64,000 bases of DNA from a virus: IMG/VR virus record IMGVR_UViG_3300019762_000001, positions 1-64,000 of that record; one strand, written 5' to 3'. The position numbers and the translations under genes were made by a program. The notes beneath the pieces are model-generated. The model did no database searches. It worked only from the letters and a program-made list of their open reading frames with translations, and had not been told where the DNA came from. Positions 803-42,478 of this stretch are shown piece by piece; the stretch's first letter is position 1, and each line of letters starts with the position of its first letter.

Positions 803-844
803 CAAATATAAGAACAAAAAAATCCCGATGCAACACACCGGGAT
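803..844 (-). promoter_or_regulatory. Overlapping terminator hairpin and promoter
   Basis: TATATTTG (810-803) lies 18 bases downstream of TTGCA (833-829). The TTGCA box sits in the loop of an inverted repeat, ATCCCG/CGGGAT (844-839 and 827-822), which is followed by a run of seven T. The same bases therefore look like the intrinsic terminator of the gene ending at 875 and the promoter of the gene starting at 778. Confidence 0.75.
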
Positions 845-9642: not shown

Positions 9643-9710
9643 CCCCAGAATCAAAAACAAACAATAAACAAACAAATCATTTAGTACTCACCAAGTGTTA
9701 CTATTTAGTA

Positions 9711-9771
9711 GGGGGATAGGGATTCGAACCCATGAGATTTTACCCCCCAGTGGTGGTATGCCTATACCGCC
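9711..9771 (-). other. tRNA-like element (degenerate or truncated)
   Basis: The minus strand contains GGGTTCGAATCCC, an exact tRNA T-loop, but only three T-stem pairs form. An 8-bp helix (GGGGGGTA with TATCCCCC, one wobble) encloses it, separated by a 9-base bulge. Upstream lies a second hairpin (GGCGGTAT/ATACCACC) resembling a D-arm that overlaps the stop codon of the 9762 gene. There is no normal anticodon arm and the total is too short for a tRNA. It could be a tRNA relic, a tRNA mimic or a terminator that resembles one. Confidence 0.35.
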
Positions 9772-10169
9772 TTTTCAGCGAAGTTCACTTTGCAGAACTC
9801 TTCATATTTAGCTTTTAACTCTTTCTTGTCTTTAACCTTGGCGGAGGCTATTTTAGCAAGAAAAGCAGTATTTTGCTTTCTGATTTTTTGGCGGTGTGAT
9901 TTTCTAGCTTGGGTATCGATACAGCCCTTAGGATAAACGTACTTTAGCGGTTTATTAAGTACTGTTTTTTGTGTTGCTGCAATTGCAACAGCTTCCTTGA
10001 TTGAATCGACCTCACCCTTGTTTTTCTGTAATTTCTTTTTCGGTTCTTTGGCAGCGGTAGCCTTAGATTTAATTGGGGTGGTCTTCTGTTTAGAAGAAGG
10101 TGATAGGTTAGATACTGCCTTTTTAAGGTCATTGTCTGTTGCCTGTTTAACTTTTTTAGTAGTTGCCAT
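9762..10169 (-). CDS. Lys/Ala-rich basic protein with YxYPxG motif
   Basis: This 135-residue, strongly basic protein has a low-complexity Lys/Ala/Thr/Gln N-terminal half like a histone tail. Residues 77-98 read YVYPKGCID then HRQKIRK, a motif also found in the proteins at 17203 and 20036. A helical C-terminus follows. Nucleic-acid binding is likely from charge and the shared motif, but the family is unknown to me. It is a monocistronic gene between the fibre operon and the early promoter at 10214. Confidence 0.65.
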   Translation of the reverse strand: MATTKKVKQATDNDLKKAVSNLSPSSKQKTTPIKSKATAAKEPKKKLQKNKGEVDSIKEAVAIAATQKTVLNKPLKYVYPKGCIDTQARKSHRQKIRKQNTAFLAKIASAKVKDKKELKAKYEEFCKVNFAEKAV

Positions 10170-10194: not shown

Positions 10195-10269
10195 TGATTA
10201 ATTATTTATACTACAAATATAAATAAAATAATAACTCGATGCAAGGATCTTCAGGGCCAACCAAGATCC
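10195..10269 (-). promoter_or_regulatory. Hairpin plus strong promoter (TTGCA-18-TATATTTG)
   Basis: TTGCA (10244-10240) is exactly 18 bases from TATATTTG (10221-10214), followed by TA, as in the best promoters here. Immediately upstream GGATCTT/AAGATCC (10269-10263 and 10251-10245) forms a hairpin at the stop of the gene ending at 10269. Bases 10195-10244 are nearly identical to 12355-12404. It drives the gene at 9762-10169. Confidence 0.8.
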
Positions 10270-11021
10270 TACCGTTTAGCCCTCTTTTTCTTTTTTCTCC
10301 TTTTTGCTATTGCTTTTTTATTAAAGCCAGATTTTGAGGAATTTCCACGGTCGTAAGGGGGATTATTATGAATAAGGTCTTTCTTTAAGCCCTCATGTTC
10401 ATACCCCATAGGGATATCATTCATGATAGATTCCCTGATGCTAAGTTGTAGATTTTTCATGGTATTACCGGATTGTCTAGCCTTCTCTACCATTAGGATT
10501 CTCTCAGTTGCTTCTACCAGAGTAAAGTTGGTAGTTCTTGATAATTGTATTGCTGCCTCCCTAAGGTTTTCTGCAGCATCATGGGCAGTCATTCCAACCC
10601 CTATTATCCTCCCCTTGGTATCCCAAGTTATTACCCCCCTAGTTTCAAAGTCTACCCTTGGGAGTTCATTATCCCATACTGTTGGTAAGGTTTTATGGCC
10701 ATTAACTTTTTCCCAAGCTTTTTCCCAGACTTCTTTTAGCCAAATATCTTTTTCTTGACTTGGTGTGAGACATATGAGTCTATCATGGCCAAGGCATTCC
10801 CCAAGCCTAGATACAAGCTCCATATTGTATTTCCCCATACCCCTATGGGCTATCATCTCAGCCCGTGTAATGTCTAATACCTTTTTCTCCGCAGCTTCAA
10901 AATCTGTGATTATGGCCTTGGGTAATGGGCCCACCCCCCCATAACTATCCACCGGGTATATAGCTTTTTGGTATTTATGGAGTCTTCTGCCTTTTAGGCT
11001 TTTATCGTTGTTCTCGCTCAT
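10269..11021 (-). CDS. Hypothetical protein with basic C-terminus, 250 aa
   Basis: The protein is a mixed alpha/beta sequence with a very basic tail of about 20 residues (KKAIAKRRKKKKRAKR at the end). The central part has a strand-turn-strand (RGVITWDTKGRIIGVGMTA) leading into a helical segment. It overlaps the upstream small membrane gene by 20 bases and belongs to the operon 12338-10269 behind the promoter at 12374. Nucleic-acid contact by the tail is plausible; function unknown. Confidence 0.6.
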   Translation of the reverse strand: MSENNDKSLKGRRLHKYQKAIYPVDSYGGVGPLPKAIITDFEAAEKKVLDITRAEMIAHRGMGKYNMELVSRLGECLGHDRLICLTPSQEKDIWLKEVWEKAWEKVNGHKTLPTVWDNELPRVDFETRGVITWDTKGRIIGVGMTAHDAAENLREAAIQLSRTTNFTLVEATERILMVEKARQSGNTMKNLQLSIRESIMNDIPMGYEHEGLKKDLIHNNPPYDRGNSSKSGFNKKAIAKRRKKKKRAKR

Positions 11022-11322
11022 ATTGAATGGGTGTTAAGTCATACTCATCTCCGAGGTATTCTCTCATATAATCTTTGAATTCATCCTCATCCATAAGTAA
11101 GATGTCGTTGTCTTTGGTTGTTTGCCTAGAGGGATCAGGCCCCATTGGGGTGTATTTGAAAGAGTCTACCCTTTCTCTTTTGGGTAGACTCTCCCTATAC
11201 TTGATTATCTCCATATCCTCTCTGTCGTATTTAGCATCTAGTCTCAAATTTGCATATGCGAGTAGAATTACTCCGATTAGTACAAAAATGAATGCTTGCT
11301 CAGATTGATTTGGTTTTGCCAT
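11002..11322 (-). CDS. Small single-pass membrane protein, 106 aa
   Basis: A hydrophobic helix at residues about 10-26 (AFIFVLIGVILLAYANL) is followed by a charged, mostly acidic domain, so the likely topology is N-out/C-in. The stop of the upstream gene and this start share one base at 11322. Middle gene of a three-gene early operon. Function unknown. Confidence 0.65.
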   Translation of the reverse strand: MAKPNQSEQAFIFVLIGVILLAYANLRLDAKYDREDMEIIKYRESLPKRERVDSFKYTPMGPDPSRQTTKDNDILLMDEDEFKDYMREYLGDEYDLTPIQYEREQR

Positions 11323-12338
11323 TAGTCATTAAAATAAGCGGTTAATTCCTCTGAAGTCTTTTGTATAATGCCCATGGCTTTTTCATATTCAGCTACCTTT
11401 GGTTTTATAGCCTTAAGTTTATTTATAAAATCCTCCAAGGGAGCTACCACCTCATCAGAGTATTCCTCCACGAAATCTCCGGATTGGATTACTTTAATAG
11501 CCAGGGCAGTTACGTTTACCTCATTATCTATATCATCTCCCCCGAATAGATACTTTAGGGAGTCGATAGCATCATCTAATTCATCTTCATCGGGTAATCC
11601 TCTAAAGGGGGGAGTATTTCTTATGATTTTTTGGAGATTTAGGTCATCCTTTATAGCCTCTATTCTTTCTTTAACCACCTCCCCAAGATATTCTATAGTA
11701 TCTTCTGAATGTTCCAAAACGAACCTTTTAAAGTTAGCTTTAACCTTTTTTTGTACCGGGCCCAAAGGTATCTCAATTGGTAAATGGTTGTTCAGCACGC
11801 TATTATCATGGAGCACCCTATCCATTTCTATCCCCAATTGCATAGCATTACCAAAGCTTCCTAGGATTAGGGATACTCTTTTGGTATCCATCAGGGGCTT
11901 AGCTCGTTTAATTGGCGCGGGCTTAGCTGGTATAGGGGTATACTCATATTTAAAGCCTATCTCCGGAAATCCCGAAAGATCAATATTTTGTACCATATCC
12001 GTAGGAGGGCTTTGGAAGTGTAGAGAATCTAACCCATAGGCTTTTTGGAATGATTTCACCAACCCGGTTTTTAATTGAGTTTCTAATTGATTGAACCAAA
12101 ATTCCACAGTATCCTCTGTAGATAGGGTTAGTTCCAGACTGTTATATAGCTCAATATACCAAGCAGATGAGGGATAATCCTTCACCTCATGTATAATGAA
12201 ATTGGGGTTAATGACAGTGTTAGAGCCCATATCTGCCAAGTCAAGGGCTTTTTCTATTGCTTCCCTTACTGTTTTGGTGTGTCCGGAAATTGTGGGTATT
12301 GCCAAGAATACCATCTTGTAGTTAGCTTCAATATTCAT
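11322..12338 (-). CDS. Hypothetical protein, 338 aa
   Basis: First gene of the operon behind the promoter at 12374-12404, with an A-rich leader (AAAACAAACAAA) before the ATG. The N-terminal part (MVFLAIPTISGHTKTVREAIEKALD) looks like a strand-loop-helix, as in many nucleotide- or sugar-binding folds, but the loop lacks a P-loop. Residues from about 250 on are acidic and helical. I do not recognise the family. Confidence 0.6.
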   Translation of the reverse strand: MNIEANYKMVFLAIPTISGHTKTVREAIEKALDLADMGSNTVINPNFIIHEVKDYPSSAWYIELYNSLELTLSTEDTVEFWFNQLETQLKTGLVKSFQKAYGLDSLHFQSPPTDMVQNIDLSGFPEIGFKYEYTPIPAKPAPIKRAKPLMDTKRVSLILGSFGNAMQLGIEMDRVLHDNSVLNNHLPIEIPLGPVQKKVKANFKRFVLEHSEDTIEYLGEVVKERIEAIKDDLNLQKIIRNTPPFRGLPDEDELDDAIDSLKYLFGGDDIDNEVNVTALAIKVIQSGDFVEEYSDEVVAPLEDFINKLKAIKPKVAEYEKAMGIIQKTSEELTAYFND

Positions 12339-12354: not shown

Positions 12355-12418
12355 TGATTAATTATTTATACTACAAATATAAATAAAATAATAACCCGAT
12401 GCAATATTCCACCGGGTT
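12355..12418 (-). promoter_or_regulatory. Overlapping hairpin and strong promoter
   Basis: TTGCA (12404-12400) and TATATTTG (12381-12374) are spaced by 18 bases. AACCCG/CGGGTT (12418-12413 and 12398-12393) forms a hairpin whose loop contains the TTGCA box and which is followed by a T-rich stretch. It is the likely end of the 12434 transcript and start of the 12338 transcript. Confidence 0.8.
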
Positions 12419-12433
12419 AACGGTTGACCAGCC

Positions 12434-12799
12434 TTATCTTTCTCTTAGTATAGCCTTTAAGCCTGGTCTATTTTTACTATCCCCGATGGTAAAGCTAAAG
12501 CTATCATCCAGGCAGCACCCATCAAAGTCATCATCTTTTCTGTAGCCTTTGCCCGTCCATAGGGAATAAGAAACATAATCATCAGGGGCATTCCTGTGGA
12601 AGGTTAGAGTAAAAGGATTGAACCTTATTGGAGCATCCCAGCAGTTATGGAAGTGGAGATCTCTCATAAGAACTTTACGTACATCCCAGTAGGTATTCCA
12701 GTTTTTATCTCTCCAAAGGCATAGGATTATTATGGCATGAAGGAATATGAATGATACCACTACTATAGCTATTACCACTCCGATATCTTGGATCATCAT
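12434..12799 (-). CDS. Membrane-anchored hypothetical protein, 121 aa
   Basis: A strong N-terminal membrane helix (residues about 5-29, VVIAIVVVSFIFLHAIIILCLW) is followed by a soluble, aromatic-rich domain with two adjacent cysteines (GCCLDD). The start overlaps the upstream gene by 4 bases (ATGA arrangement). It ends the small operon 14074-12434. Function unknown. Confidence 0.6.
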   Translation of the reverse strand: MMIQDIGVVIAIVVVSFIFLHAIIILCLWRDKNWNTYWDVRKVLMRDLHFHNCWDAPIRFNPFTLTFHRNAPDDYVSYSLWTGKGYRKDDDFDGCCLDDSFSFTIGDSKNRPGLKAILRER

Positions 12800-14096: not shown

Positions 14097-14127
14097 CAAA
14101 TATAATAAAAATAATAACTCAGTTTAG
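14097..14127 (-). promoter_or_regulatory. Bacteroidetes-type promoter
   Basis: TATATTTG (14104-14097) follows the common AGTTATTATTTTTATTA spacer. The -33 position is CTAAA rather than TTGCA. It lies between the terminator at 14157-14187 and the denV-like gene. Confidence 0.7.
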
Positions 14128-16264: not shown

Positions 16265-16295
16265 CAAATATATAAATAATAATAACCCAATGCAA
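16265..16295 (-). promoter_or_regulatory. Strong promoter (TTGCA-18-TATATTTG)
   Basis: TTGCA (16295-16291) and TATATTTG (16272-16265) keep the exact 18-base spacing. The 26 bases 16291-16316, covering the -33 box and sequence upstream of it, recur identically at 22046-22071. Confidence 0.8.
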
Positions 16296-17861: not shown

Positions 17862-18233
17862 TTATTTACCAGTATTACTGGAATAGATAATACCGGGTTT
17901 TAATTCTCTGCAGGTAACCTTGATTCTAGGGTGTTCCGCAATGGTTGGCTCATGTATTTGGAATAAAGCTAAAGCCTCAGATTCTGAAGCAAGTCCTGTA
18001 TACATCTTAGACCATTTTTTATTTTGATACTTCCACTCTAAAAGGTATATAGTATGTGTTGTACCATACCTTTTCAGATGTTCTCTGTGGGTTTGTATAT
18101 TACCTAATAGTTGATTTCTGCGAATCCTATATGTTTTACTAGTTGGGTTTTCATCTAAACCCTTTTGGTTCTCCTTGAGCATTTCTTCAGCCCGTTTGAG
18201 TAACTCTAATATTTCGAAAGCTCTTCTACTCAT
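17862..18233 (-). CDS. Hypothetical protein, 123 aa
   Basis: The N-terminal 60 residues form a probable helical hairpin (AFEILELLKRAEEMLKENQ); the rest is a mixed domain with a WKYQNKKWSKMYTG segment. It overlaps the upstream gene by 4 bases (ATGA). Last gene of the operon behind the promoter at 19025. No family recognised. Confidence 0.6.
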   Translation of the reverse strand: MSRRAFEILELLKRAEEMLKENQKGLDENPTSKTYRIRRNQLLGNIQTHREHLKRYGTTHTIYLLEWKYQNKKWSKMYTGLASESEALALFQIHEPTIAEHPRIKVTCRELKPGIIYSSNTGK

Positions 18234-19024: not shown

Positions 19025-19055
19025 CAAATATATATAAAAATATAACTCAGTGCAA
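19025..19055 (-). promoter_or_regulatory. Strong promoter (TTGCA-18-TATATTTG)
   Basis: TTGCA (19055-19051) and TATATTTG (19032-19025) are spaced by exactly 18 bases. A perfect TAACCCA/TGGGTTA inverted repeat (19069-19085) lies 14 bases upstream of the -33 box. Confidence 0.8.
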
Positions 19056-19160: not shown

Positions 19161-19263
19161 TAATCGGAGAGGGATTTGAACCCCCGACTGACCCTAGGCC
19201 TTACGAATTTGCAATTAAATTCAGTGTACCTAGACTGCTCTGACCAGGCTGAGCTATCCGATT
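19161..19263 (-). tRNA. tRNA-like gene with an expanded anticodon domain
   Basis: The acceptor AATCGGA/TCCGATT pairs over 7 of 7 bases, the D-arm is GCTC-AGCCTGGTCA-GAGC, and the T-arm is GGGGG-TTCAAAT-CCCTC (one wobble). The anticodon stem is CTAGG/CCTAG, but it encloses 30 bases rather than 7; inside these GAATTT/AAATTC can form a second hairpin. Total length is 103, so about 28-30 bases are extra. No anticodon can be assigned with confidence. It is too small for a group I intron. Options are a tRNA carrying an insertion, a tRNA mimic, or an inactivated tRNA. Confidence 0.7.
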
Positions 19264-22019: not shown

Positions 22020-22050
22020 CAAATATATATATTATAATTACTCAGTGCAA
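22020..22050 (-). promoter_or_regulatory. Strong promoter (TTGCA-18-TATATTTG)
   Basis: TTGCA (22050-22046) and TATATTTG (22027-22020) keep the 18-base spacing. The 26 bases 22046-22071, which include the stop codon of the upstream gene, are identical to 16291-16316. Confidence 0.8.
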
Positions 22051-34842: not shown

Positions 34843-35712
34843 TTACTTTCCTAGTTTTTTATTATACTCCCGTTTGAAAGCCCTACGCTTAGATGGGGAG
34901 ATACAGTCCTCTGGATATGGTATACTCTCTTTATATAACTTTAGATCTTTTACTAGAAGTGGTTTTCTTCCAGAGATCTTTTCCCCCTTATCATTTTCTT
35001 GTAGTTGATTAACACTTCTCAAGTGCACCTTGTACCTAATAGTTTTTGGGTCCACGGTTTTAAAGTAGTGTAAAGTTTCCAAGATCTTTTTCTCGAATTT
35101 GGTTGGGTTCTTTTTCTTTCGGAATAATCTGTCTATACTCTTGTGGTTATCATACATCACAAATGACTCAGCAACTAGGTATATGTTAGGACAAAACATT
35201 TCCAATGATACGCTTTGATCAATCCCATATACATATTCAGCTATCCTCTGTACTAAGAGGAAATCGAATAGTAACCTCTTAGTTACTTCTGAAGATCTCA
35301 GGGTCATGTATAATACAGGTACATCCCTATCCACTCTTCGAGAGAATGTCAAGGTTAATAAGCACCCCTTACCAGAACCATGGGAGTTGTCAAACAAGTA
35401 ACTGATATTGTAGTTAGTTGCTCTCTTTTTCTCCCTGGCTAGTATCTGAGATTTGATTAGGTCAAGATAATCTAAGTGGAGGTAGTTATTTATTAACTTA
35501 GTCCACTTAGCTGTAGTATACCCAAATGTAGAACCAAAGTCAAATTCAGGATCTACCCAGACCTTATTAATTTTGATGTAATGGTTATAGGCAATAATCT
35601 CTGGCCCATACAGTGAGCCTCCAGTTTCCATTACCTCATCAGATTTAAGGGCTAAGTATTCATTAATACCCTCCCAGGCTTCCTGAGTGTTTGAAAATTC
35701 TAGTTCTTTCAT
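34843..35712 (-). CDS. Second thymidylate-synthase-fold protein (divergent)
   Basis: This 289-residue protein has a TS-like core: GKGCLLTLTF (C117 at the nucleophile position), TLRSSEVTK (R139, S140, S141) and LLFDFLLVQRIAEYVYG (D150 at the Asn position). The final His-x-Tyr is not clear. The N-terminal half and C-terminal 80 residues differ from normal TS; the C-terminus is basic. It may act on a pyrimidine nucleotide or be a regulatory or partner subunit of the neighbouring TS. A paralogue with lost activity is possible. Confidence 0.55.
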   Translation of the reverse strand: MKELEFSNTQEAWEGINEYLALKSDEVMETGGSLYGPEIIAYNHYIKINKVWVDPEFDFGSTFGYTTAKWTKLINNYLHLDYLDLIKSQILAREKKRATNYNISYLFDNSHGSGKGCLLTLTFSRRVDRDVPVLYMTLRSSEVTKRLLFDFLLVQRIAEYVYGIDQSVSLEMFCPNIYLVAESFVMYDNHKSIDRLFRKKKNPTKFEKKILETLHYFKTVDPKTIRYKVHLRSVNQLQENDKGEKISGRKPLLVKDLKLYKESIPYPEDCISPSKRRAFKREYNKKLGK

Positions 35713-35715
35713 CGA

Positions 35716-36501
35716 TTAGTATTTAGATTTTACTCTGAATAGATTGATACGGTTCTTTTTATAGTATACCTGTATGAATCCTAGTGGAGTCATTTGCAAT
35801 GTACCTAAGCATAGTTTAAAATAGATCGTAGCAGCTTCTATTAATCTACTCTTAAACTTATTCTCATCGGTCATTACCTGATGCTGTTTCCAGGGTTTAT
35901 TCTTTAGAACATTCTTGGCCATCTGGAGTTTGTAATTGAATTGCCAGTGGGATTCTATGAGTAATGCTGTGTACTCGGAATCTACCTCTCCAAGTATATC
36001 CCCAGCGGATAGGTAATCAATATGATTCGGGTATTCTCCGGCCAGGTTAAAGAGTTTGCAGGTAGAAACTGGTTTAGCAAACCCCCCATAGTACATTGTA
36101 CTCATAGGGTCTAGGTTGGTTTCATCACCCGCCATAGCTATTTCTAACTCCCTTGGTGTAACCCCAACATAAATCAGGGTCTCAAGTAGGAATGCAGTAG
36201 TATCCGCAATTTCCTCATTGAAACCAGCAAGGTTAGCTAAACTTCTTGTACCTAAGCTCATTAGCTTTTCGTAGTATTCCCAACCTTCCCCAAGTTCCTC
36301 AGCAATTCTGCCGATGAAATCTTTTAGGATAACCTGACTCTTAGGTTCGTGTGGATTGATTGGCCACTGTGGTAGTGATTCTACCCTTACATACTCAACC
36401 ATCAATTCTTTCTGAAGGTCGAATAACACTGATATACCATCCCCGTTGTGTATTTTACTTACCAATTCTTTGGGAAGATTAGGTGCTGATTGAATGTCCA
36501 T
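35716..36501 (-). CDS. All-alpha dNTP pyrophosphatase (T4 gp56/dUTPase-2-like)
   Basis: The metal-binding helices are IAEELGEGWEYYEKL (E68, E69, E72) and NEEIADTTAFLLETLIYVG (E96, E97, D100). The protein ends YYKKNRINLFR plus KSKY, which closely resembles the end of T4 gp56 (YYLKNKENFARQ plus DNGY). T4 gp56 hydrolyses dCTP and dUTP, giving dCMP and dUMP for modification and thymidylate synthesis. At 261 residues it is longer than gp56, with an insertion between the motifs and the tail. Confidence 0.75.
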   Translation of the reverse strand: MDIQSAPNLPKELVSKIHNGDGISVLFDLQKELMVEYVRVESLPQWPINPHEPKSQVILKDFIGRIAEELGEGWEYYEKLMSLGTRSLANLAGFNEEIADTTAFLLETLIYVGVTPRELEIAMAGDETNLDPMSTMYYGGFAKPVSTCKLFNLAGEYPNHIDYLSAGDILGEVDSEYTALLIESHWQFNYKLQMAKNVLKNKPWKQHQVMTDENKFKSRLIEAATIYFKLCLGTLQMTPLGFIQVYYKKNRINLFRVKSKY

Positions 36502-41836: not shown

Positions 41837-42478
41837 ATGGAATTACATCGATTAAAGCCCCTTAAGGATGGCTTCCCAGAAGAGCTCTTCAATAAGATCT
41901 ATCTGGAAGTTCAACCCCTTAAGCACAAACTAATCTCTGGCATAGACTGCAGGAGATTGGGAGTTTCAAAGGATATAGTTGAATCCTGGTTTGATGATAA
42001 AATACTTTATGTGTTTAATAAGTATTTTGATGAGAAGCCGGACACAATAAAAGGCTATGTGCTTAGCTCCCTATCAACATTTAAGTATAGGGTTTTGAGA
42101 AAAGCCTACCAGGCGGATATTCATGAGAATTTGGTAGAGCTAGAGGGTGAGAAAGAACTCATTAATATTATACCAGATGAAAGTGAGATGAATGAAGCGG
42201 AGTTATTCTTAGAGTTAGCCCATTCCTTTATGCAGAAGGCATTAACCGAGGATGCTTTATTGGTTTATGAACTCCAATTAAATCCCCCACCGTTTATTTT
42301 AAAACGGCTAAAAAACCCAAACTCAAGGATACCAACTTGTTTATTGTCGGATTTCTTGGGTTTGGGCGATAGTAGAGATTCTTTAGATTACGTTAATAGC
42401 TTGAGGGAGGAAATTACCATGGCTATAAAACAAGCTAGGGAGTACTTTAAAGAATCTGGTGTTTGCTTAGTTGAGTAA
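41837..42478 (+). CDS. Divergent sigma-factor-like protein
   Basis: This 213-residue protein is the only plus-strand gene. Residues about 52-90 (WFDDKILYVFNKYFDEK, GYVLSSLSTFKYRVLRKAYQ) resemble sigma region 2: a core-binding helix, then a basic helix. Acidic residues follow at about 100-120, and ALTEDALLVYELQLN then LLSDFLGLGDSRDSLDYVNSLREEI resemble a short region 4-like HTH. The order and size recall T4 gp55, the late-gene sigma. No identity search is possible, so the assignment rests on fold-like pattern and position. Confidence 0.55.
   Translation: MELHRLKPLKDGFPEELFNKIYLEVQPLKHKLISGIDCRRLGVSKDIVESWFDDKILYVFNKYFDEKPDTIKGYVLSSLSTFKYRVLRKAYQADIHENLVELEGEKELINIIPDESEMNEAELFLELAHSFMQKALTEDALLVYELQLNPPPFILKRLKNPNSRIPTCLLSDFLGLGDSRDSLDYVNSLREEITMAIKQAREYFKESGVCLVE

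Follow-up and report, generated by a model that had tools for sequence, protein, structure and literature searches.

Putative composite terminator–promoter cassettes at early-gene junctions of an uncultured Bacteroidota-type phage

Introduction

The promoter early stem-loops (PeSLs) of T4-like phages were reportedly described by Arbiol in 2010 and by Comeau in 2014, the latter under a title that calls them "composite conserved promoter-terminator motifs". A paper citing this work states that these elements mediate shuffling (PMC4503421). In E. coli, the frd terminator overlaps the ampC promoter region (PMC11838884), and the RNA polymerase of this bacterium can be recycled after termination and initiate again at whichever promoter is nearest (PMC11347151). 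The primary-sigma promoter of Bacteroides consists of a −7 element, TAnnTTTG, and a −33 element (PMC7366714). Here we describe short intergenic cassettes of a phage in which, at two sites, a terminator-like hairpin and its T-rich tail overlap a promoter of this kind.

Results and Discussion

The window, that is, the whole stretch of DNA analyzed, comprises 64,000 nucleotides (bases 1–64000) of an 80.7-kb IMG/VR virus record (G000) whose genes lie almost all on the minus strand. Tail sheath, tape measure and baseplate proteins, a PolA-like DNA polymerase, RecA, and SbcC-like and DnaB-like proteins identify its source as a tailed phage whose tail is contractile. No close DNA relative was found among named phages, and the tail-sheath and early-gene proteins retrieved no relatives when used as baits. 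The DNA polymerase retrieved G001 (82.7 kb) and G002, and the promoter core retrieved G003, a partial record of 43.9 kb. G001 is ~68–76% identical to G000 in aligned blocks and mostly 82–98% identical to G003. The phage is uncultured and of Bacteroidota type, and we infer from the many small unknown genes and the host-type promoters that the cassette-bearing region is early.

Other features of the genome were recorded. The sole substantial plus-strand gene of the replication region (41837–42478) has no Pfam match and has a counterpart at the same place in G001 (35139–35783); it is a candidate regulator. On the minus strand, 19161–19263 gives a tRNA match (Rfam, 41.9 bits) that ARAGORN missed; its anticodon region is interrupted by a large insert able to fold an inner hairpin, GAATTT/AAATTC. 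Also on the minus strand (~9690–9761), a T-arm-like sequence, GGGTTCGAATCCC, lies directly 3′ of gene 9762–10169 and is found 3′ of the orthologous gene in G001 as well, with no Rfam match at E 0.5.

The promoter pattern TTGCA-N17..19-TAnnTTTG has six matches, compared with 0.08 expected from shuffles, and all six are on the minus strand. Each takes the exact form TTGCA-N18-TATATTTG and stands at a gene start, with the start codon 24–44 nt downstream, which bears out an initial reading that the strong copies share this form. With the −7 box fixed as TATATTTG, the whole 80.7-kb record contains no TTGCA promoter beyond these six. TATATTTG itself occurs in eight cassettes of G000, labeled A–H, of which D and G lack TTGCA. 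It conforms to TAnnTTTG and is invariant in all 25 cassettes across G000, G001 and G003. The −33 box is less constant, being absent from C, D, E and G in the relatives and from D and G in all three phages. The promoters share an extended core, YGRGTTATT, and a CGGGTT-like core occurs both with and without a hairpin. Sites with and without a hairpin cannot be told apart by the number of T residues in their spacers; since a T-rich tract is also present at hairpin-less cassettes, the tract is no proof of a terminator. In a rumen Bacteroidales genome, TTGCA-N17..19-TAnnTTTG has 42 matches versus none for the reversed pattern, so that TTGCA can plausibly be regarded as a −33 element of the host type.

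A second promoter-like type, TTGCA-N16-TATGTTTG, is conserved in all three phages. It lies at ~76585–76617 of the G000 record, beyond the window, at 18075–18103 in G003, and at 11–39 and 82669–82697 in G001. The two ends of the G001 contig are direct repeats of each other and contain the two G001 copies, which suggests that this genome is complete.

The cassette features, all on the minus strand, are as follows.

820–846, minus: cassette H putative terminator hairpin GGATCCCGGTGT-GTT-GCATCGGGATTT, 3′ of gene 875–1753, with a T-rich tail
829–833, minus: cassette H −33 box TTGCA, mostly within the 3′ arm of the hairpin
803–810, minus: cassette H −7 element TATATTTG, pattern match
12392–12419, minus: cassette E putative terminator hairpin TAACCCGGTG-GAATATTG-CATCGGGTTA, ~15 nt after gene 12434–12799, tail TTATTTTATT
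12400–12404, minus: cassette E −33 box TTGCA, half in the loop and half in the stem, absent in both relatives
12374–12381, minus: cassette E −7 element TATATTTG, upstream of gene 11322–12338
10244–10270, minus: cassette F hairpin AGGATCTT-GGTTGGCCCTG-AAGATCCT, −8.7 kcal/mol, abutting the promoter
10240–10244, minus: cassette F −33 box TTGCA, pattern match
10214–10221, minus: cassette F −7 element TATATTTG, upstream of gene 9762–10169
16265–16295, minus: cassette C promoter TTGCA-N18-TATATTTG, with a weak overlapping hairpin TCCAA/TTGGG (16303–16286)
19025–19055, minus: cassette B promoter TTGCA-N18-TATATTTG, no overlapping hairpin
22020–22050, minus: cassette A promoter TTGCA-N18-TATATTTG, no hairpin
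14097–14104, minus: cassette D −7 element TATATTTG, without TTGCA
2578–2585, minus: cassette G −7 element TATATTTG, without TTGCA, overlapping hairpin negligible at best

The hairpins of H (12 pairs, 3-nt loop) and E (10 pairs, 8-nt loop) are both on a mechanically compiled terminator list. Only these two cassettes combine a stable stem with a U-rich tract, the signature of an intrinsic terminator; the E tail is U-rich, yet has no classic U run. At the other cassettes the overlap is weak or absent. The F hairpin shares the first T of TTGCA and is without a proper U tract of its own. Cassette C has an additional stand-alone hairpin (~16351–16327), cassette D has a stand-alone terminator-like hairpin (~14187–14158) and no overlapping hairpin of note, and a TAACCC/GGGTTA hairpin lies immediately upstream of cassette B. 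A putative terminator and a host-type early promoter occupy one short intergenic cassette at E and H, where they overlap, and at C and D, where they are adjacent. The next gene after H, which starts with ATG (323–778) or GTG (323–838), encodes a pentapeptide-repeat protein.

The first-pass annotation had taken the T-rich tract after the stem at 803 and 12374 to be the promoter spacer, and at both sites the hairpin and its T-rich tail indeed overlap the promoter. The six-base-pair arms that it gave, ATCCCG/CGGGAT and AACCCG/CGGGTT, are correct but short, as the pairing runs into TTGCA. Consequently, the box that it placed in the hairpin loop is mainly stem at 803, where the loop is a GUU triloop, and half stem at 12374. 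The hairpin said to abut TTGCA at 10214–10269 was recovered at 10270–10244, with one base shared with TTGCA.

The mechanical list contains 26 terminators in 20 kb compared with 18.3 expected, a count so close to expectation that listing alone proves little. The pairing at E and H has p ~0.0007 each in G000 when the 5′ side is swapped for random 39-mers of the same genome. When the cassettes' own 5′ arms were compared with those of other cassettes, the swap test gave p = 0.036 for G000, 0.0007 for G001 and 0.0012 for G003. A hairpin of ≤−10 kcal/mol ends in the 19-base overlap zone at 1.1% of random G000 positions, and strong overlap was found at two of the eight cassettes versus 0.09 expected (binomial p = 0.003). 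Orthologous sites of the three phages are not independent, so these p values are not to be multiplied.

Cassettes A–H occupy corresponding gene junctions in G000 and G001, and C–H do so in the partial G003 as well; an extra cassette, I, occurs in G001 and G003, and another, J, in G003. None of the 22 pairs of the E and H hairpins is broken in the relatives; in three pairs both bases differ, and in five only one does. The two-sided changes are T-A to A-T at H in G003, and C-G to G-C and G-C to A-T at E. These compensatory changes, with no pair broken, indicate that E and H are selected RNA hairpins. The hairpin and the box do not travel together. At the E locus TTGCA has been lost from both relatives while the hairpin and the T tract persist, and at the F locus TTGCA is present in all three phages and a weak surrounding hairpin only in G001 and G003. 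H alone keeps both in every phage. Since hairpin and TTGCA are kept independently, the case for a dedicated box-in-loop switch is weakened; judged from the sequences compared, the arrangement is an overlap of two signals evolving separately.

A fusion of terminator and promoter, with termination coupled to initiation, had been proposed in the first-pass annotation. The overlap stands, and compensatory change supports the hairpins as RNA structures; the coupling is not supported as it was put. Opening or forming the hairpin is a poor candidate for a switch, as orthologous sites do not keep box and hairpin jointly, and a −33 box in double-stranded DNA cannot be covered by folding of the upstream gene's RNA alone.

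Terminator–promoter overlap is not confined to this phage but turns up elsewhere. The phages crAss001 (first 50 kb), B124-14 and FCL-2 have one overlapping hairpin each (≤−10 kcal/mol) followed by a T-rich tract, though individually these are not significant (p 0.05–0.10). In the rumen Bacteroidales genome, an overlapping hairpin (≤−8) was found at 4 of 39 sites not picked by the cassette pattern, which is not clearly above the background of that genome, and the overlap counts show no significant excess in the phage relative to this genome (Fisher p 0.12–0.15). The cassette core has two matches in GTDB genomes, one of which, in a rumen Bacteroidales genome, abuts a strong hairpin. Among the viral contigs searched, the exact cassette E string is absent, and GGTTATTATT...TATATTTG occurs in 72 stretches, few of them with a strong hairpin. 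No strong overlap was seen in the DP SC_2 and DP SC_6 contigs, which carry a related DNA polymerase.

Individual arrangements were also observed in this survey. Among the four rumen Bacteroidales sites, two near-identical copies (L114 and L131), possibly a mobile element, have TTGCA at the loop edge of ATCTGCC.../...GGCAGAT before TAnnTTTG. In a 175.8-kb viral contig (L075, minus strand, ~4113), the hairpin AATAACCA/TGGTTATT carries a sigma-70-like TTGACT in its loop, and a T-rich spacer and then TATATT come after it; this is the same overlap with a different promoter type.

The cassettes behave as repeats within the genome, and junctions that are not orthologous have them in common. In G000, E and F have 41 identical bases and A and C have 26, compared with a maximum of 17 for random pairs. 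The gene downstream of H differs among all three phages, and G003 has an extra gene directly upstream of C. The gene before I in G001 is the one before J in G003, and the homology ends at TATATTTG of J. Several homology blocks end no more than ~60 nt away from a cassette (C, D, E, H, I and J), but gene borders generally carry breaks too. It is therefore suggestive only that the cassettes lie at junctions of early-gene exchange.

We propose that these are composite terminator–promoter cassettes, used by the host RNA polymerase, at junctions of early-gene exchange, and we consider this reading probable. It draws on the sequence, conservation, covariation and intergenic position of the cassettes, from which termination, initiation, use of the host polymerase and a role in recombination are inferred. 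At the strong cassettes, the intrinsic terminator of the upstream gene would be laid over the Bacteroidota-type primary-sigma promoter of the next gene. The 3′ arm of the hairpin would cover the −33 region and the U-rich tract would serve as the spacer before TATATTTG, so that one transcription unit is ended and the next begun within ~60 bp. The overlap may be tolerated because most of the promoter information resides in the −7 element and an AT-rich sequence suffices as spacer. A domain search gave no sigma-70 region 2 in either phage, nor any RNA polymerase domain of the cellular type, which favors the host enzyme. The cassettes look like a compact form of promoter–terminator cassettes already known in other phages; our literature search returned no direct description of overlapping terminator and promoter.

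The hairpins could instead be chance pairing with a conserved promoter extension, TTGCAYYGRGTT. The CGGGTT-like core seen with and without a hairpin would fit, as would the weak hairpins of C (in G000) and of D, F and I (in the relatives), which are individually near chance. For E and H, however, this is disfavored by p ~0.0007 in each phage, by the significant swap tests and by the compensatory changes; as a general account it is highly improbable, and for the weakest sites it is likely. An equally faint prospect is that the inverted repeat, rather than being a terminator, serves as a DNA operator through which a phage regulator controls the promoter. The repeat does cover the −33 region at promoters with the shared core YGRGTTATT, but its arms differ among sites and change by compensation, whereas the sequence of a specific operator should be preserved; moreover, most promoters have no strong repeat.

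Coupling of termination to initiation is possible in view of the sequence layout. The predicted 3′ end and the next predicted start are only ~15–23 bp apart, so a terminating polymerase would be left beside the promoter, and bacterial RNA polymerase recycles after intrinsic termination and restarts at the nearest promoter (PMC11347151). The terminated polymerase might stay on the DNA and restart at the overlapping promoter, or read-through might occlude that promoter, linking neighboring early units. We regard this as unlikely, and slightly more so the specific version in which a polymerase ending on the hairpin sits over the next promoter and restarts, linking early units without a regulator. 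Strong overlap occurs at just two of eight cassettes and is not conserved jointly with the box. Moreover, short terminator–promoter spacing is common (14 bp is reported in a T7-group phage), and the literature search found no test in Bacteroidota.

Comparison with Known Systems

Bacteroides sigma-ABfr promoters have a −7 TAnnTTTG and a −33 element with an AT-rich spacer between them. The composite cassettes share the −7 element and the spacer, which doubles as the putative terminator tail in some copies; in the −33 position they either carry TTGCA or have no such element. As in frd/ampC, start signals overlap with the end of the preceding operon; there, however, the terminator is an attenuator downstream of the ampC start, whereas the phage hairpin lies upstream of the start. 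RNA polymerase recycling would supply a coupling mechanism at adjoining promoters, but it is described for the E. coli polymerase and not for Bacteroidota or this geometry.

The cassettes illustrate how compact regulatory signals can become in Bacteroidota and their phages: a putative terminator's T-rich tail can double as a promoter spacer, since the promoter resides mostly in its −7 element. Annotating terminators and promoters separately misses such shared bases. The cassettes are also natural test objects for termination-coupled reinitiation, and they extend the idea of promoter–terminator shuffling cassettes past the T4-like phages.

The likeness to PeSLs, as these are reported, lies in short repeated cassettes, a terminator joined to a host-type early promoter, a plastic early region and, possibly, a position at gene-exchange junctions. 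In the T4 stretch examined, where the clear case is upstream of soc, the terminator lies ~13 nt before the −35 box with no overlap, whereas the phage cassettes have stem and tail within the promoter, which is of the Bacteroidota type. The phage has contractile-tail genes, but its DNA polymerase is of the PolA kind and its nearest named matches are not T4-like. The cassette would work like a PeSL and is not classed as one.
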